Part shown: piece by piece, positions 11,575 to 36,007 of the stretch
How positions within the stretch are numbered: position 1 is the stretch's first letter
Layout: each line of letters starts with the position of its first letter
IMG/VR virus record: IMGVR_UViG_3300042868_006295
Span: 1-37,641 of that record
Strand: one strand, 5' to 3'
DNA length: 37,641 bases
DNA from: a virus
Position numbers and translations under genes: made by a program
Notes under the pieces: generated by a model
Databases searched by the model: none
What the model saw: the letters and a program-made list of their open reading frames with translations, nothing else
Told to the model about the DNA's origin: nothing

Positions 11575-12219
11575 ATGGCCGGTGAATGGATCAAGGTGGA
11601 GTTGCACCTACACGAAAAGCCGGAGGTTTTTCAGATAGCAACGGCCACAGGAATGGACCCCGATACGGTAGTGGGAAGGCTTCTGAAAATATGGGGCTGG
11701 GCGTCACGAAATTGTCACGCTGATGGCGTGACACATATCGCGGCACTCGCGCATTTGAACAAAATTGCAGGAAACGAAAGATTCGCTGAGAGCATGCAAG
11801 AAGCGGGCTGGCTTGAGTTAAAAAACTCGAAAATCATCTTCCCGAACTTTGACAGGCATTGCTCGCAAAGTGCTAAGGAAAGAGGGCTTGCCTCAATGCG
11901 GAAGGCTAAGGAAAGAGTCACGAAAATGTCACGCTCAGACCGTGACAAAAGTGTGACCAGAGTAGAGAAGAGAAGAGAAGATATTACTACAGACCTACCA
12001 ACGCGCGAGGAGCCAGTCGGCGACCTTGAAACGGAAAACGCGGAATGGTTGGAGAACATGCGGCGGAATTTCCCTGACCGCGATGTCGATGGCGAGCTGA
12101 AGACCTTTCAGCGTTACTGCGCCAGCAAAGGAACCGCAGCAAACCAACGGGGCTTTTTCGGATGGCTCAAAAAATCCAGCCCGGCAATCCCCGCTCAAAA
12201 ATCACAATGGAGTTACTGA
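11575..12219 (+). CDS. Phage replisome organizer / replication initiator (lambda O-like role)
   Basis: A 214-residue protein whose N-terminal domain (W-I-K-V-E-L-H-L-H-E-K-P-E-V, then V-V-G-R-L-L-K-I-W-G-W-A-S-R-N) matches the winged-helix domain of phage replisome organizers. Such proteins bind the origin. A charged linker (about residues 100-150) leads to a small C-terminal domain likely to contact the helicase loader. The gene precedes a DnaC-like loader, as O precedes P in lambda. Two modules of GTCACG/CGTGACA sites lie within its coding sequence, so the origin may be inside the gene. The ATG at 11575 follows the previous stop by one base. Confidence 0.8.
   Translation: MAGEWIKVELHLHEKPEVFQIATATGMDPDTVVGRLLKIWGWASRNCHADGVTHIAALAHLNKIAGNERFAESMQEAGWLELKNSKIIFPNFDRHCSQSAKERGLASMRKAKERVTKMSRSDRDKSVTRVEKRREDITTDLPTREEPVGDLETENAEWLENMRRNFPDRDVDGELKTFQRYCASKGTAANQRGFFGWLKKSSPAIPAQKSQWSY
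11703..11733. other. Putative origin module A (three heptamer-type sites)
   Basis: GTCACG starts at 11703, TGTCACG at 11713 and the inverted CGTGACA at 11727. The same three sites with the same 10- and 14-base steps recur 214 bases downstream. Iterons inside the initiator gene are the arrangement seen in lambda. Confidence 0.55.
11917..11947. other. Putative origin module B (three heptamer-type sites)
   Basis: GTCACG at 11917, TGTCACG at 11927 and CGTGACA at 11941 repeat module A with identical spacing. A further GTGTGAC follows at 11951, then a purine-rich stretch (about 11960-11985) that could be an unwinding region. Confidence 0.55.
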
Positions 12220-12944
12220 ACGACATGCAAACGATGACAACACGAGAGTGCGCGGACTGCGCAACGGGGTTTACTCCGCATGATGTGGAGTTCGGCGGAA
12301 GGACGATCTTCACGCAGACACGCTGCGAGGCGTGCCAAGAACGGGCCTGCAAGGCGTCGGAGGATGCCGAGAAGGTCAGGGTAGCGGAGGCGAAGAAAAA
12401 AGCGCGGGAGGATGCCTTTCTGGCGATTTGCCCGCCTCTCTACCGCGACACCGACCCCGAACGAATCCATGCACGCTTCCGCGAGGCGGCTTTCACCTGG
12501 ACATGGAACCCGGTGGGAGTCGGCTTCGTGGGGATGGCTGGCAAGGGGAAAACACGGGCGGCTTATCTGCTGATGAACCGGATGGTGCAAGCAGGCCACC
12601 GATGCGCGGCGATGACCTCGACCACATTCGGGAAAATATGCGTCGATCAATTCGCCGATGACAAAGCACGCAAAGCGCAAGCGGAAAAAGACCTCCGCGC
12701 ATGCTACACGGCAAGCGTGTGGTTTCTCGACGACCTCGGCAAACAACGCATGACCGAGAGGGGAGAAATGGAGCTTTACGCCGTGCTGGAACACCGCACG
12801 GCCAACATGTTGCCGACGATCTGGACGGCCAACGCCAAAAGCGATGTCCTTTGCAAGATGTTCAGCGAAGACAGAGGCGAGCCGATCATGCGGAGGCTCA
12901 TCGAGTTCTCGCGGATTACAGCGGTATGGAGGGACGGGCAATGA
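12207..12944 (+). CDS. DnaC-like helicase loader ATPase
   Basis: A 245-residue AAA+ ATPase of the DnaC/DnaI family, expected to load the host replicative helicase at the phage origin. Cys15/Cys18 and Cys40/Cys43 form a zinc-binding N-terminal module as in DnaI-type loaders. Walker A is G-M-A-G-K-G-K-T (109-116), Walker B V-W-F-L-D-D (171-176), and the sensor 1 region T-I-W-T-A-N. The end R-R-L-I-E-F holds the likely arginine finger. I favour ATG 12207, overlapping the initiator by 13 bases. ATG 12162 is also open but would overlap by 58. Confidence 0.88.
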   Translation: MELLNDMQTMTTRECADCATGFTPHDVEFGGRTIFTQTRCEACQERACKASEDAEKVRVAEAKKKAREDAFLAICPPLYRDTDPERIHARFREAAFTWTWNPVGVGFVGMAGKGKTRAAYLLMNRMVQAGHRCAAMTSTTFGKICVDQFADDKARKAQAEKDLRACYTASVWFLDDLGKQRMTERGEMELYAVLEHRTANMLPTIWTANAKSDVLCKMFSEDRGEPIMRRLIEFSRITAVWRDGQ

Positions 12945-13165
12945 GCGCCACGCCTGAGACGGACGCGCTCTATGCGCAAATGCTGGCCGAAAACCCCGGC
13001 AACTTCATCCACCTTGAGGAGTTTCTGGAACTGGCTTGCCGATTGGAGCAGGAGCGCGACGAGGCGAGGGAGGAACTCGCCCACCTCCGCGCATGCGTCT
13101 TCGATGTTCTGCATTGCGTTAAAACAGGAGCCTTTGAGGAGCTTGAAAAGGCATGGAAGAAATGA
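12941..13165 (+). CDS. Hypothetical coiled-coil protein, 74 aa
   Basis: A 74-residue acidic helical protein. It begins T-P-E-T-D-A-L-Y-A-Q-M-L-A-E, a start I have seen in small phage proteins annotated only as hypothetical. A long charged helix follows (E-F-L-E-L-A-C-R-L-E-Q-E-R-D-E-A-R-E-E-L-A), likely coiled coil. It starts in a 4-base overlap with the helicase loader and overlaps the sigma-like gene by 13 bases, linking replication to late-regulator genes in one transcript. Confidence 0.6.
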   Translation: MSATPETDALYAQMLAENPGNFIHLEEFLELACRLEQERDEAREELAHLRACVFDVLHCVKTGAFEELEKAWKK

Positions 13166-13698
13166 CCCCAGAGGACGCCATGACCTCCTGCCTGCAACGC
13201 ATCGCCACAGGCGACCAAGACGCGATGGCCGAGCTGTTCACCCTCACGCAGCCAGAAGTCACGCGCATCATCGCGTCCATCGTCCCGGCTGACGATGCAG
13301 GGGACATCTACCAGACCGCCATGCTCAAGGTATGGCAGAAGGCCGGAACATTCCGCGCCGGGGCGCCGGTCATGCCGTGGCTTATCGGCATTGCCCGCCG
13401 AACTGCCTTTGACCTCCTGCGCACTCGGAGGCGTCGAGTCGCCCTATTTGAAAAAAATAACGACTCGGAAGGCTCTCTCGTGCCGTCATTAAAGGAAGAC
13501 CGGCGCGAAATACGCCAACACCTGGACAACCTGCCAGCCATGCAAAGTAAAATCATCCGCCTTAGCTTTTTCAAAAGCATCCCTCTCAAAGACATCGCCG
13601 CACAGGAAGGAATCACGCTCAACCAAGCCCGAACTCTTCGCCGCAAAGCACTTAACACACTCAAGAAAAGCCTAAACCTTGAAAATCTCCTCGCTTAA
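13153..13698 (+). CDS. Phage-encoded ECF-like sigma factor
   Basis: A 181-residue protein with the two-domain layout of group IV (ECF) sigma factors. Region 2 spans about 15-95: D-A-G-D-I-Y-Q-T-A-M-L-K-V-W matches the -10-binding and core-binding helices, followed by P-W-L-I-G-I-A-R-R-T-A-F-D-L-L-R. Region 4 spans about 120-172: L-D-N-L-P-A-M-Q-S-K-I-I-R-L-S-F-F, then an HTH (I-P-L-K-D-I-A-A-Q-E-G-I-T-L-N-Q-A-R-T-L). Its place, last in the replication block and before packaging genes, is where phages put late regulators. It could direct host polymerase to the five late promoter motifs found here. Confidence 0.85.
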   Translation: MEEMTPEDAMTSCLQRIATGDQDAMAELFTLTQPEVTRIIASIVPADDAGDIYQTAMLKVWQKAGTFRAGAPVMPWLIGIARRTAFDLLRTRRRRVALFEKNNDSEGSLVPSLKEDRREIRQHLDNLPAMQSKIIRLSFFKSIPLKDIAAQEGITLNQARTLRRKALNTLKKSLNLENLLA

Positions 13699-13876
13699 AT
13701 ACAAAGACGGGACAGCTCACCACGCTGCCCGTGGTTATGTCGTGCTATGGGCAACGCTCATGGCACACGCCAAGCCAAACCATCGCGGCTCTATCGCCGA
13801 AATCAGCCGCGAAATGATGGAAGCCATAGATGTCGATGAGCAACGCCAAGACAAAGGGGAGGCGCATGAACTCTGA
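13679..13876 (+). CDS. Small hypothetical protein downstream of the sigma factor, 65 aa
   Basis: A 65-residue frame starting at TTG 13679, overlapping the end of the sigma-like gene by 20 bases and the Mor-like gene by 11. The product contains H-H-A-A-R-G-Y-V-V-L-W-A-T-L-M-A-H-A and a helix I-A-E-I-S-R-E-M-M-E-A-I-D-V-D-E. A small gene directly after an ECF sigma is often an anti-sigma. The H-x3-C-x2-C zinc motif and a transmembrane helix are both absent, so that role is only a guess. The weak start codon lowers confidence. Confidence 0.45.
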   Translation: MKISSLKYKDGTAHHAARGYVVLWATLMAHAKPNHRGSIAEISREMMEAIDVDEQRQDKGEAHEL

Positions 13877-14339
13877 AATCCCTCTACCACCCACGGCTCA
13901 AGTCGTTGCCGATGTCATAGGACGCGAGGCCACGCTGGCCCTTGCCATGTCCTGCCTCTATCGATGCCTGTATGTGCCAAAAGGAAAGCTGGCACCGGAC
14001 AGCTATCTCGTGCGCACAATCGGAGAAGAGAAAGCCAAGCTCATGCAAAGGGAGTTCTGCGGCATGCTCTTACCGCTGGCAACCTGCCACCACATCGCCG
14101 TATTTGAACGCCAACAACGCATCCGTGCTGCCGTAGCAGAAGGGAAGACACACGCACAAGTCGCAGTCGCTTATGGCCTCACGGTCAAATGGGTGCGCAA
14201 CCTATGCGCCCGCAAGCCAGACGAGTATCGCTATCCACTCAAAGCCTACGACCAGCCACCAGCCGGGGGGGTAGTAGGTTCTTCCACGGGGGGACGGGAG
14301 CGGGTATGCGGAAACTTGCAGAGTTTGGCTAGAGATTGA
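13866..14339 (+). CDS. Mor/C-family transcription activator
   Basis: A 157-residue protein resembling the Mor transcription activator family of Mu-like phages, whose members Mor and C switch on middle and late genes. V-V-A-D-V-I-G-R-E-A-T-L-A-L starts the dimerisation domain (residues about 13-75). An HTH follows at 85-113 (R-I-R-A-A-V-A-E-G-K-T-H-A-Q-V-A-V-A-Y-G-L-T-V-K-W-V). I start at ATG 13866 after a good GGGGAGG; 13830 and 13836 are also in frame. The last 40 residues are Gly-rich and encoded by G runs. With the sigma-like gene it makes a two-gene late-regulator candidate. Confidence 0.75.
   Translation: MNSEIPLPPTAQVVADVIGREATLALAMSCLYRCLYVPKGKLAPDSYLVRTIGEEKAKLMQREFCGMLLPLATCHHIAVFERQQRIRAAVAEGKTHAQVAVAYGLTVKWVRNLCARKPDEYRYPLKAYDQPPAGGVVGSSTGGRERVCGNLQSLARD
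14265..14304 (+). other. G-run cluster, possible G-quadruplex
   Basis: Runs of 7, 6, 3 and 3 G occur at 14265-14271, 14288-14293, 14296-14298 and 14302-14304, near the end of the Mor-like gene and just before the modification and packaging genes. One loop is long (16 bases), so a stable quadruplex is not assured. Confidence 0.4.
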
Positions 14340-14367
14340 CCAAAAAACTGCCGTTTGATTTTACAAA

Positions 14368-18017: not shown

Positions 18018-19936
18018 CGCCCCAACAACTCGACCGCGCCAGCGACCTCATCGCGGCATGGTCGGCCATCATTTCACCGCCTCCAAAATGGACGATCAGC
18101 GAATGGGCAGACCACCGGCGCAAACTCTCCGGCGAGGCGGCAGCGGAGAAAGGCCAGTGGCGAACAAACCGCGCCGAATACCAGCGAGGCATTATGGACG
18201 CCGTAGCCGATCCGACCATTGAGCAGGTTGTCGTCATGTCATCGGCACAGGTGGGAAAAACCGAGGTGCTTCTGAACTGCATCGGCTACTATGTTGATTT
18301 CGACCCCTCGCCCCTCATGCTCGTCCAACCCGACGAGGCTATGGCAGAGACATTCAGCAAGGACCGCCTCGCGCCTATGTTCCGAGACTCGCCCAGCCTC
18401 CGCTCCAAGGTGCGACCGGCGAAGACCCGCGACAGCGGAAACACGATCCTCCACAAAAGATTCCCCGGCGGGCATGTCACGCTGGTCGGAGCCAACGCCC
18501 CCAGCGGCCTCGCCTCTCGCCCGATCCGCATCCTCCTGCTTGACGAGGTAGACCGCTACCCCGCAAGTGCCGGGAGCGAGGGCGATCCGGTGAACCTCGC
18601 CATTGCCCGAACAAAGAACTTTTGGAACAGAAGAATCGTGATGGTCAGCACCCCGACCGTCAAAGGTCTCTCTCGCATCGAACGCGCTTTTGAGCTTTCC
18701 GACCAGCGGCATTTCCTTGTGCCGTGTCCGCATTGCCAACACGAGCACCCGCTGCGGTGGGGCAATGTCGTATGGCAGGACGGACGCCGCGACCTTGCAA
18801 CCCTCCGGTGTCCCGCCTGCAACGGCACGATCACCAACGCGCAGAAAAACCAAGCGGTCTCCCGTGGTCGGTGGCAGGCCAGCGCCGGACCCAGCCGGAT
18901 CGCAGGCTTTCACTTGAACGAACTCTATTCCCCCTGGCGAAGCATAGCAGACATCGCCATCGAGCATGGGCGTGCCAAAGACGACCCCTCAACTTTGCAA
19001 GTATGGATCAACACCAGCCTCGGCGAAACATGGGAAGAAGGAGGCGAACGCATCAGCGAGCATGCCCTCATCGAGCGATGCGAACCCTACCCGCAGGCAG
19101 ATGTCCCCGCCCGTGGGTTGATCCTGACGGCTGGCGTCGATACTCAGCAAGACCGGCTCGAGGTTGAAGTGGTCGCATGGGCAGGCGGCGAAGAAAGCTG
19201 GAGCGTTGCCTATCATGTCATTCTCGGAGACCCCGACATTCCCGAAGGCACAGAAGGAAGCCCGTGGACGCACCTCACCGACTACCTTCGCAAACGCTGG
19301 ACATCCGAGGCAGGCGGCGAAATGGTCATCGAAACCACCTGCATCGATACCGGCGGCAGCAACACGCAGGCCGTTTACGGCTATGTGAAGCGGCACAAGG
19401 GAGACAGAGTTTACGGCGTGAAAGGACAAGGCGGACCCGGCTTGCCCATCGTCGGCAACCCCGCCCGCCGCAGGGCAGGAAAAAAAACCACGCGCCCCAT
19501 CGATGTCTACATTGTGGGAGTCGATTCCGCGAAATCCATAGTTTACAAGAGACTGCGCATCACGGAACCCGGCTCTGGATATTGCCACTTCCCGCAAGGG
19601 CGCAGCGCCGAGTATTTCAGAGGGTTGACCGCAGAAAAGGCCGTGACGAAATTCGTAAAGGGATTCCCCCGGATGGAGTGGCACAAAACATCCGGCGCAC
19701 GCAACGAACCGCTCGACTGCCGGGTTTACGCATTCGCCGCGCTCGTCCTTCGCGCCCCGCAGTTTGACAAGCTCGCCCTACGGAGGCGGCAGACCATGCC
19801 CACGCCCAAGCCCGCCGAGGTCGAGACGCCCCAGCCAACGGAACGCCCCGCAGAAGACACCCCCAGACCGGATGCCAACAATGCCGCGAAACGCAAGCGC
19901 ACCACGCGCAGGGCGTCCTTCGTGCATCAATGGTGA
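18014..19936 (+). CDS. terL: Terminase large subunit (lambda GpA-like)
   Basis: A 640-residue DNA-packaging motor and nuclease of the GpA family, the same length class as lambda gpA (641). The ATPase domain has Walker A S-S-A-Q-V-G-K-T (76-83) and Walker B I-L-L-L-D-E-V-D (173-180). The C-terminal nuclease begins near residue 370 with T-A-G-V-D-T-Q-Q-D. Four Cys at C-P-H-C and C-P-A-C (about 236-276) form a zinc finger, as in this family. The gene starts in a 4-base overlap with the methyltransferase. Its C-terminal tail is low-complexity and contains the first late-promoter motif (19840-19860). Confidence 0.95.
   Translation: MTPQQLDRASDLIAAWSAIISPPPKWTISEWADHRRKLSGEAAAEKGQWRTNRAEYQRGIMDAVADPTIEQVVVMSSAQVGKTEVLLNCIGYYVDFDPSPLMLVQPDEAMAETFSKDRLAPMFRDSPSLRSKVRPAKTRDSGNTILHKRFPGGHVTLVGANAPSGLASRPIRILLLDEVDRYPASAGSEGDPVNLAIARTKNFWNRRIVMVSTPTVKGLSRIERAFELSDQRHFLVPCPHCQHEHPLRWGNVVWQDGRRDLATLRCPACNGTITNAQKNQAVSRGRWQASAGPSRIAGFHLNELYSPWRSIADIAIEHGRAKDDPSTLQVWINTSLGETWEEGGERISEHALIERCEPYPQADVPARGLILTAGVDTQQDRLEVEVVAWAGGEESWSVAYHVILGDPDIPEGTEGSPWTHLTDYLRKRWTSEAGGEMVIETTCIDTGGSNTQAVYGYVKRHKGDRVYGVKGQGGPGLPIVGNPARRRAGKKTTRPIDVYIVGVDSAKSIVYKRLRITEPGSGYCHFPQGRSAEYFRGLTAEKAVTKFVKGFPRMEWHKTSGARNEPLDCRVYAFAALVLRAPQFDKLALRRRQTMPTPKPAEVETPQPTERPAEDTPRPDANNAAKRKRTTRRASFVHQW
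19840..19882 (+). promoter_or_regulatory. Late promoter motif, copy 1 (upstream of connector and portal genes)
   Basis: GGAACGCCCCGCAGAAGACA begins at 19840, inside the 3' end of the large terminase gene. Sixteen bases after AGACA lies CAACAAT, a weaker version of the [C/T]AAAAT box seen in copies 2-4. The next gene starts about 50 bases downstream. Being in coding sequence, this copy is also constrained by the protein (E-R-P-A-E-D-T). Confidence 0.55.
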
Positions 19937-23449: not shown

Positions 23450-23491
23450 GGAACGCCCCGCAGAAGACACGGATTTTCGCAGCGGCAAAAT
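23450..23491 (+). promoter_or_regulatory. Late promoter motif, copy 2 (upstream of fibre genes)
   Basis: GGAACGCCCCGCAGAAGACA at 23450-23469 is followed exactly 16 bases after AGACA by CAAAAT (23486-23491), a -10-like box at normal spacing. The next gene starts 54 bases further on. The terminator just upstream isolates this unit. Confidence 0.65.
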
Positions 23492-27063: not shown

Positions 27064-27080
27064 GTTGGTTCATAGGTTAT

Positions 27081-27115
27081 CCCGGCGTGGGCCAAAACCC
27101 ACGCCGGGTTTTTTT
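27081..27115 (+). terminator. Strong rho-independent terminator before the capsid gene
   Basis: CCCGGCGTGGG (27081-27091) and CCCACGCCGGG (27098-27108) form a perfect 11-bp stem with a six-base loop, followed by seven T. It ends the fibre transcript 17 bases after the stop at 27063. Confidence 0.9.
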
Positions 27116-27157: not shown

Positions 27158-27199
27158 GGAACGCCCCGCAGAAGACAGCCCGCCGCCCGCTGGCAAAAT
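27158..27199 (+). promoter_or_regulatory. Late promoter motif, copy 3 (upstream of capsid gene)
   Basis: GGAACGCCCCGCAGAAGACA at 27158-27177 is followed after exactly 16 bases by CAAAAT (27194-27199). Transcription would start near 27206, only a few bases before the capsid ATG at 27210, so the mRNA would be almost leaderless. Confidence 0.65.
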
Positions 27200-27209
27200 T
27201 CGCGCACAC

Positions 27210-29078
27210 ATGAAGCCCGCCGCGAAAGAACTTTTCAACCAGCCCATGCGCCGAGTCATGACCATCGGCACGATCAGCGCAGAGTCGCGCACGGTGGAGC
27301 TTGCATTTTCGAGCAACGCCGAGATCGAGCGTTGGCCCGGCATGGTCGAAGTCCTCGATCACTCTGCCGATGCCTGCGACCTCTCGCGGCTCAACGACCG
27401 CGCAAATCTTTTGTTCAACCATGACGCATCCGAAGTCCTCGGAGTCGTCGAGACCGCCCGCATTGACGCTGACGGGATGGGCCGAGCGTTGGTTCGCTTT
27501 GGCAAATCCGAACGCGCCGAAGAAGCGTGGCGAGATGTTGAGGACGGAATCCTCACGAAAGTCTCAGTCGGCTACGCAATTCGTGAAGTCAAATTGACCG
27601 AAGAACGAGAGGGCGTGGATGTCTACACCGTGACCCGGTGGCAACCCCATGAAATCTCCCTCGTCACAATCCCGGCGGACCCCTCATGCGCAGTGGGTCG
27701 GAGCCTCAACAACCCGCCAGAGGCGACCAGCCTCGGCACAATCACCCAATCCAATATGCAAGACACACCCAATCCCGCGCCACAAGCGCCCGCACCGGCG
27801 GCCCCGGAGATCAACATCGTCGCCGAGCGCAATGCCGCTGTGAAAGGCGAGCAAGACCGCACCCGCTCCATCTTGGAAGCAGGCGACAAATACGGAATGC
27901 CCGCCCTCGCCGCACAGATCGTGCGTGACGGTGGCAACCTGCTCGACTTCCAAGCCGCAGCCCTTGCCGAGAAAGACAAGCGCAGCGCCCAAGTCCGCGA
28001 AGGCCATGCACCCATCGGCCTCAACGAACGCGAAGCTGGCAGCTTCTCCTTCGTGAAGCTCATCCGCGCCCTCGCCGCAGAGCCAACCGACAAAAAAGCC
28101 CGTCAAGACGCAGCTTTTGAACTGGAAGCCTGCGAAGCAGCGGCCGGCCAAGTAGGACACCGCAACGTAAAGGGAACAATGATTCCCGTGGATGTCCTCA
28201 CCGCAGGCTACGGCCAGCGCGGAACTAACACCGTTTCCGGCAAAGCCGCCGCTGGCTACACCGGCACAGGCAACAACACCGTGCAGACCAACCTCCTCGC
28301 CTCCTCGTTCATCGATGTGCTCCGCAACAAAGCGGTCATCATGAACCTCGGCACCGAGCTGGCTGGCCTCGTCGGCAATGTGGACATGCCCAAGCAAACC
28401 ACATTCGGCACTGGCTACTGGATCGGTGAAGACGACGACGCGACAAAATCCGACATTGACTTCGGACTCGTCTCGCTCCGTCCTCGCACCGTTGCCAACT
28501 TCGGCGAAATCACCCGCCGCATGTTGATGCAGCCCTCGCTGTCCGTCGAAGCCCTGCTTCGTAACGACCTCGCCCAAGGCTTGGCCCTTACCATCGACTC
28601 CGCAGCCTTCTACGGCACCGGACTCAGCAACGCCCCGACCGGAATCAAATCCGCCGCAGGCGTCCTCTCGCAGTCCTTCGTCGCAGTTCAGCCAACCTTC
28701 GCGGAACTCGTGAACATGGAAAGCCTCGTCAGTGCGCAGAACACCGATGTCGCCAGCATGGCATTCGTTGCCAACCCAAGCACACGCGGCATGGCAAAGA
28801 CCGCGCTCAAATTCCCAACCGGCTCCACCAACGGCGGAACCATCTGGGAAAACGGCACGATGAACGGCTACCGCACCGAGATCACCAACCAGATCACCTC
28901 TGGCGATGTGTTCTTTGGCAACTTCGCCGACTTCATCATCGGCCTCTGGGGGGGCCTCGAAATCACCGTGGACCCATACAGCAACAGCACAAAAGGCCGT
29001 CTCCGCATCGTTTGCATGCAGGATGTGGACTTCGCTGTCCGCCGCGCCCAGTCCTTCGTTTACGGCAAAAAGCCCTAA
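27210..29078 (+). CDS. Prohead protease-major capsid protein fusion (HK97 fold)
   Basis: A 622-residue fusion. Residues 1-165 are an HK97-type prohead protease: His71 in L-F-N-H-D-A-S, Ser119 in K-V-S-V-G-Y, and the P-H-E-I-S-L-V-T-I-P-A-D motif near 148-159. Residues about 170-320 are a Pro/Ala-rich linker and charged helical delta-like scaffold region. Residues 330-622 are the HK97-fold major capsid protein (S-F-I-D-V-L-R-N-K-A, W-I-G-E-D-D-D, then D-P-Y-S-N-S near the end). The protease would release itself and the scaffold by cleavage. Separate protease and capsid genes are more common, but such fusions are known. A terminator follows. Confidence 0.93.
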   Translation: MKPAAKELFNQPMRRVMTIGTISAESRTVELAFSSNAEIERWPGMVEVLDHSADACDLSRLNDRANLLFNHDASEVLGVVETARIDADGMGRALVRFGKSERAEEAWRDVEDGILTKVSVGYAIREVKLTEEREGVDVYTVTRWQPHEISLVTIPADPSCAVGRSLNNPPEATSLGTITQSNMQDTPNPAPQAPAPAAPEINIVAERNAAVKGEQDRTRSILEAGDKYGMPALAAQIVRDGGNLLDFQAAALAEKDKRSAQVREGHAPIGLNEREAGSFSFVKLIRALAAEPTDKKARQDAAFELEACEAAAGQVGHRNVKGTMIPVDVLTAGYGQRGTNTVSGKAAAGYTGTGNNTVQTNLLASSFIDVLRNKAVIMNLGTELAGLVGNVDMPKQTTFGTGYWIGEDDDATKSDIDFGLVSLRPRTVANFGEITRRMLMQPSLSVEALLRNDLAQGLALTIDSAAFYGTGLSNAPTGIKSAAGVLSQSFVAVQPTFAELVNMESLVSAQNTDVASMAFVANPSTRGMAKTALKFPTGSTNGGTIWENGTMNGYRTEITNQITSGDVFFGNFADFIIGLWGGLEITVDPYSNSTKGRLRIVCMQDVDFAVRRAQSFVYGKKP

Positions 29079-32544: not shown

Positions 32545-32586
32545 GGAACTCCCCGCAGAAGACACCCGCCCTTGCGTCCCTAAAAT
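32545..32586 (+). promoter_or_regulatory. Late promoter motif, copy 4 (upstream of baseplate W-J-I genes)
   Basis: GGAACTCCCCGCAGAAGACA at 32545-32564 starts three bases after the gpV stop. Exactly 16 bases later is TAAAAT (32581-32586), the best -10 of the set. Transcription would start near 32593, next to the W start codon at 32595. AAAATTCGC is shared with copy 3. Confidence 0.65.
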
Positions 32587-32594
32587 TCGCCAGC

Positions 32595-35933: not shown

Positions 35934-35975
35934 GGAAGTCCCCGCAGAAGACACCAGCACGCTCATTTCCCACAC
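35934..35975 (+). promoter_or_regulatory. Late promoter motif, copy 5 (upstream of sheath gene)
   Basis: GGAAGTCCCCGCAGAAGACA at 35934-35953 begins immediately after the fibre stop. The -10 position holds CCACAC, so the [C/T]AAAAT box is missing in this copy. The sheath ATG is about 55 bases further. This copy would serve the whole sheath-to-D tail operon. Confidence 0.5.
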
Positions 35976-36007
35976 TCACCACCGCAACCGCAACCAACTA
36001 AACAACC

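Follow-up and report, generated by a model that had tools for sequence, protein, structure and literature searches.

Genes at the end of the replication block

The stretch of DNA analysed here (the window) is the complete genome of a temperate myovirus, 37,641 nt in length (IMGVR_UViG_3300042868_006295), with a 127-bp direct repeat at its ends that indicates circular closure. We found no tRNA genes in the window and no near DNA match to it among isolated phages. Genes for an integrase, an excisionase, RecT/exonuclease, RusA, a replication initiator and a DnaC-like loader all precede a cluster made up of a sigma factor gene, a small gene and a Mor-family gene, and those for ParB, terminase, portal, capsid, baseplate, sheath and tape measure proteins lie downstream (Table 1). 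The three open reading frames of the cluster were found where the original prediction had placed them. Its view that the sigma and Mor pair stands at the end of the replication block was borne out as well, with the loader gene on one side and the genes for ParB, TerS and TerL on the other.

Table 1. Features of the window (numbering of the 37,641-nt stretch)
Feature	Position	Strand	Details
DnaC-like loader gene	12162-12944		directly before the sigma and Mor pair
ECF-type sigma factor gene	13153-13698	+	regions 2 and 4 only; profile matches, predicted model, dN/dS
65-codon gene	13679-13876	+	TTG start; overlaps sigma and Mor genes; conservation, dN/dS
Mor-family (PHROG_836) late transcription activator gene	13866-14339	+	profile matches; HTH at residues about 80-117
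Conserved DNA element, candidate cos/packaging site	14277-14345		overlaps 3' end of Mor gene
Predicted late promoter 1	19840-19882	+	box 19840-19859 within terL 3' end; -10-like AACAAT 19877-19882; before gene 19930
Predicted late promoter 2	23450-23491	+	box 23450-23469; -10-like CAAAAT 23486-23491; before gene 23545
Hairpin and T run, probable terminator	27080-27115		just upstream of late promoter 3
Predicted late promoter 3	27158-27200	+	box 27158-27177; -10-like CAAAAT(T) from 27194; before major capsid gene 27210
Predicted late promoter 4	32545-32587	+	box 32545-32564; -10-like TAAAAT(T) from 32581; before baseplate wedge region
Predicted late promoter 5	35934-35976	+	box 35934-35953; -10-like CACACT 35971-35976; before tail sheath gene 36008

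The sigma factor gene

The 181-aa product of the first gene had been predicted to be an ECF sigma factor with regions 2 and 4, and both profile searches and structure prediction placed it inside that family. It exceeded the Pfam gathering scores for Sigma70_r2 (4.8e-11) and Sigma70_r4 (3.9e-7), and scored 76.1 bits against the NCBIfam sigma70-ECF model TIGR02937, which has a cut-off of 42.9. Pfam found only region 2 (residues 28-95) and region 4 (residues 124-172) in the protein, without regions 1.1 and 3. The predicted model (mean pLDDT 77, with a low-confidence linker at residues 98-113 between the two regions) matched the solved ECF sigma factors SigE of E. coli, SigK of M. tuberculosis and SigW of B. 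subtilis, which likewise consist of regions 2 and 4 only, and its region 2 superposed on that of E. coli SigE (TM 0.85 of the target). The gene start at 13153 may be slightly early because relatives begin at a methionine matching window position 13162, and this conserved residue may be the true start.

When the gene was compared with its homologues, dN/dS against the window copy was 0.11-0.27. This purifying selection argues that the sigma gene is used and is functional. In one relative the region-4 half (L005:10300-10537, compared with 13450-13698) had diverged further than the region-2 half, with synonymous distance equal for the two halves, a candidate case of relaxed or diversifying change, or of recombination. 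An anti-sigma gene usually, though not universally, lies next to an ECF sigma gene. Unlike SigE, SigK and SigW, the window sigma is phage-borne and has no recognisable anti-sigma gene beside it, and its 65-codon neighbour gave no significant family match. Phage ECF sigmas had been described as rare, and only 14 of 50,697 phage records matched the protein at E<=0.01, every one at less than 60% identity. Such sigmas are thus uncommon, yet known before: crAss-like records are among the 14, and phiEco32 and 7-11 also encode sigma factors (PMC8948821).

The Mor-family gene

The Mor/C activator layout proposed for the third gene was upheld by a match of its 157-aa product to PHROG_836, 'late transcriptional activator', at 1.9e-22 over residues 5-120, and by a C-terminal HTH. 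Against the Pfam Mor model the window protein reached 24.5 bits, 0.4 bits short of the 24.9 cut-off, and relatives at 40-50% identity exceeded that cut-off. With Mu Mor/C (PF08765; 1RR7, 9L0X) it has in common a family-level sequence match, the C-terminal HTH and a gene position just before the late genes, and it differs from them in a longer conserved N-terminal LPPTAQ segment. Comparison of the predicted model with the solved structures 1RR7 and 9L0X gave a Z of 5.1 over the HTH half only (47-51 residues), tied with many HTH proteins, and a whole-model Foldseek search returned no match at E<=0.001. The start at 13866, which follows AAGGGGAGG, is conserved in close relatives, and with a dN/dS of 0-0.05 the gene is the most constrained of the three.

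At its 3' end the gene runs into a conserved DNA element of approximate sequence RGGTNCTTCCNNGGGGG. Elements of this type precede the terminase genes of other phages whatever the reading frame (L031:10763; G026, G027 and G024; L180:15610; L181:43574; L182:3213, minus strand), and are a candidate cos/packaging site.

Five predicted late promoters

The box GGAASKCCCCGCAGAAGACA occurs exactly five times in the window, where 0.03 copies would be expected by chance, and none of 100 shuffles reached five. The core did not vary across 121 distinct copies in the window's own group, in part by selection as most copies were fetched by the core pattern, while the -10 positions, which lie outside that pattern, were A38 in 100%, A40 in 94% and T42 in 76%. 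In eight phages a -10-type A(38)...T(42) pair stood at one fixed offset from the box at 33 of 38 sites, against at most 7 at any other offset, with the -10 hexamer 37 bp from the box start. Taking the start point as 7 bp after the -10, the box spans about -49 to -30 and no proper -35 is present. A box upstream of a sigma70-type -10 without a proper -35 is the layout of Mor/C-type promoters, as the original prediction had held on the basis of the motif geometry. At Mu Pm the -35 is replaced by a Mor-binding element whose centre is at -43.5 (PMC4390567), and the window box is placed where Mor binds there, again with a sigma70-type -10 and no proper -35. The Mu Pm site consists of 5-bp inverted repeats with a 6-bp spacer, whereas the window box, as read from its 20-bp consensus, has no 5-6-5 arrangement in any register and is therefore not classed as a Mu-type site. 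Unlike Mu, moreover, the window has one box repeated at five promoters.

A strong hairpin, CCCGGCGTGGGCCAAAACCCACGCCGGG, with a T run lies just upstream of promoter 3 and is a probable terminator separating late units. The -10 of this promoter is so near the capsid ATG (about 10 bp; 27194-27212) that the predicted transcript would be nearly leaderless, and promoter 4 looks similar.

When one genome from each of 84,980 prokaryote species was scanned for the box, three scattered matches were obtained (Hungatella, Nitrospirae and Chloroflexi), which is about the chance level. The box would therefore belong to phages rather than being a promoter common in hosts, and a host-wide motif was rejected; the same scan identified no prophage or host. 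ParB was considered as the reader of the box and rejected, as the box-bearing phages G003 and G004 have no ParB. No description of these late promoters was found in the literature searched.

Distribution of the sigma gene, the activator and the box

Relatives drawn from IMG/VR fell into four groups: sigma with full Mor (group A; the window, L001-L006 and L008), full Mor without sigma (group B; L027 and L028), sigma with a Mor lacking the HTH (group C; L007), and HTH-less Mor plus a 148-aa gene, without sigma where the upstream region is covered (group D; L031, L033-L036 and L038-L040; L032 and L037 do not cover the sigma slot). The core of the late box was identical in all four groups. Five copies were present in G000, G003-G007, G017 and G018, and four in G010, G012, G016 and G008. 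Sensitive profile searches detected the PHROG_836 activator family in all 20 records compared; an ECF sigma exceeded the cut-off in 7 of them. These counts include related contigs and some fragments. Every sigma-bearing contig has the box, and the sigma-less relatives G010, G016 and G018 have the 20-bp box with its core unchanged, in 4-5 copies. Absence from a fragment is weak evidence, and weight is therefore placed on the complete isolates and on four long records, G010, G018, G026 and G027, with G016 (29.5 kb) as a supporting record.

In relatives the sigma slot is taken by a 75-aa gene or by no separate gene, suggesting that this position, directly before the small gene and Mor, is exchangeable and that the ECF sigma is an accessory gene in its own right. 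The 75-aa gene of group D (L031:9581-9805; PHROG_7024 match at 8e-6) was considered as a sigma substitute and did not turn up in groups A-C. The 65-codon gene was kept in 8 of 8 close relatives with a dN/dS of 0.02-0.12, which indicates a real, constrained gene. Sigma-less relatives still have it directly before Mor, with only the first residues exchanged in group B and in a more diverged version in group D. Because it stays by Mor where sigma is absent, it appears to belong with Mor and not with sigma, contrary to the suggestion that it could regulate the sigma factor.

Seven further phages with the activator and no sigma above the cut-off have related boxes with the same -10 spacing. Three are uncultured (G026, GGAAATCCCCGCACAAGAC, four copies; G027, GGAAAGACCCGCACAAGAC, four copies; G025, GAGCAAACGCGCACAAGAC, five copies) and four are isolates with five copies each, namely ep3 from E. 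coli (L180; GACAAACCCCAAGAAGA), Mica from Burkholderia (L181; GGAAATCCCACGGGAGGA), Persinger from Pseudomonas (L182; GGAAATCCCACAAGAGGA) and FoX5 from Xanthomonas (L179/L183; GGAAATTCCGGACATGG). Five of the seven thus have five box copies, at matching late-gene places. A de novo search for repeats in the isolates gave the box as the top-ranking 17- or 18-mer. Like the window, they combine a PHROG_836 activator and a similar late-gene order with the five related boxes, which lie at the terL 3' end, before or in the capsid gene, before the wedge, before the sheath and at the activator/holin junction. Unlike the window they have no ECF sigma; the window has no box at the activator/holin junction and an extra copy at 23450. 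The literature searched contained no description of these five-copy boxes.

The sigma factor and the late promoters

The original prediction had allowed either protein to recognise the late motif. For the sigma factor this would mean that GGAAC in the box serves the phage sigma holoenzyme as an ECF-type -35. GGAAC does resemble the usual ECF -35, and the box is present in all sigma-bearing contigs. There is also precedent in phage-encoded sigma factors that partner the host polymerase and act on phage middle or late promoters, such as phiEco32 gp36 and 7-11 gp47 (PMC8948821). However, unlike these, the window-type sigma gene need not be present for the late boxes, which are intact in G010, G016 and G018 and have related forms in the seven sigma-less phages, largely refuting the reading. 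Some copies, above all that before the sheath gene, have GGAAG, and relatives have GGAAA. Furthermore, no conserved ECF -10 lies 16-17 bp from GGAAC, and a sigma70-type -10 is fixed at 37 bp. A late sigma of this kind is thus highly improbable.

The sigma factor might instead time late expression by driving an internal promoter that serves the small gene and Mor. The gene order, the overlap of the genes and the purifying selection on the sigma gene agree with such a cascade. Against it, the order of small gene and Mor stands without sigma in G010, G016 and G018, and a search of the phage for an ECF-like promoter specific to sigma gave none: sigma-bearing relatives were not richer in GGAAC-N15-17-CGT-type patterns than sigma-less ones, and the 16-mers exclusive to sigma-bearing genomes came down to seven short stretches in or beside late genes, none ECF-like on reading. 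We consider the cascade improbable. As a sigma-specific phage promoter was not seen, host promoters are the likelier targets, and some of the host RNA polymerase is probably diverted by the factor to other promoters, those of the host being more likely than those of the phage. Collectively, the comparisons indicate that sigma and Mor are not a two-part late switch.

Activators without the HTH

In some relatives Mor is cut after about 95 residues and lacks the HTH (L007/G007, at L007:10693-10983, and L031-L040, at L031:10001-10291), and the boxes are unchanged. In L031-L040 an overlapping 148-aa gene (L031:10281-10724) replaces the HTH and is followed by residual DNA from the 3' part of Mor. 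The 148-aa protein gave no useful family or structure match and no recognisable DNA-binding domain. The window and G026 have almost identical boxes, yet their HTH recognition helices are very different.

These observations count against Mor as the reader of the box, as do the missing Mu-type 5-6-5 dyad and the middling structural match to Mor/C, confined to the HTH half. They also raise the idea of an HTH-independent Mor-type activator, in which the N-terminal domain mainly recognises the box, alone or with the 148-aa partner. What every box-bearing phage retains of the activator is its N-terminal domain, the box persists in groups C and D despite the loss of the HTH, and recognition helices diverge between phages whose boxes remain alike. 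On the other side, DNA binding by Mu Mor depends on its HTH, the 148-aa protein has no recognisable domain for the task, and loss of the HTH may be a degenerate condition, or one that an unseen factor makes good. Recognition through the N-terminal domain is therefore unlikely as a general reading; if it held, lineages with the 148-aa gene in place of the HTH would still activate the same promoters. For groups C and D themselves, either the N-terminal domain or the 148-aa partner would carry specificity, or another factor would stand in.

A proposed Mor-activated late programme

The late promoters follow the activator across the group and not the sigma gene, and are read here as most likely class-II, activator-dependent promoters of the host primary sigma. 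We propose, with a probability of about 0.75, that the Mor-family protein is the late activator of the five promoters and that the ECF sigma is a separate accessory gene. Mor would be made from the early/replication transcript and would bind the box GGAANNCCC...AAGAC of the five late promoters. It would then recruit host RNA polymerase with the host primary sigma, which would read the -10 hexamer at its fixed distance from the box start, and the ECF sigma would direct part of the host polymerase elsewhere. This proposal draws on family identities, co-occurrence, box conservation, the fixed -10 spacing and purifying selection. Confidence is held at this level by the HTH-less groups C and D, the divergence of the recognition helices and the missing 5-6-5 dyad.

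If so, late promoters throughout a large phage group, some of whose members are isolates in laboratory hosts, would be assigned to a named activator family, and the predicted box and -10 are directly testable. The ECF sigma would be removed from the late-promoter role, which sharpens the question of its function in the host as an optional phage gene.
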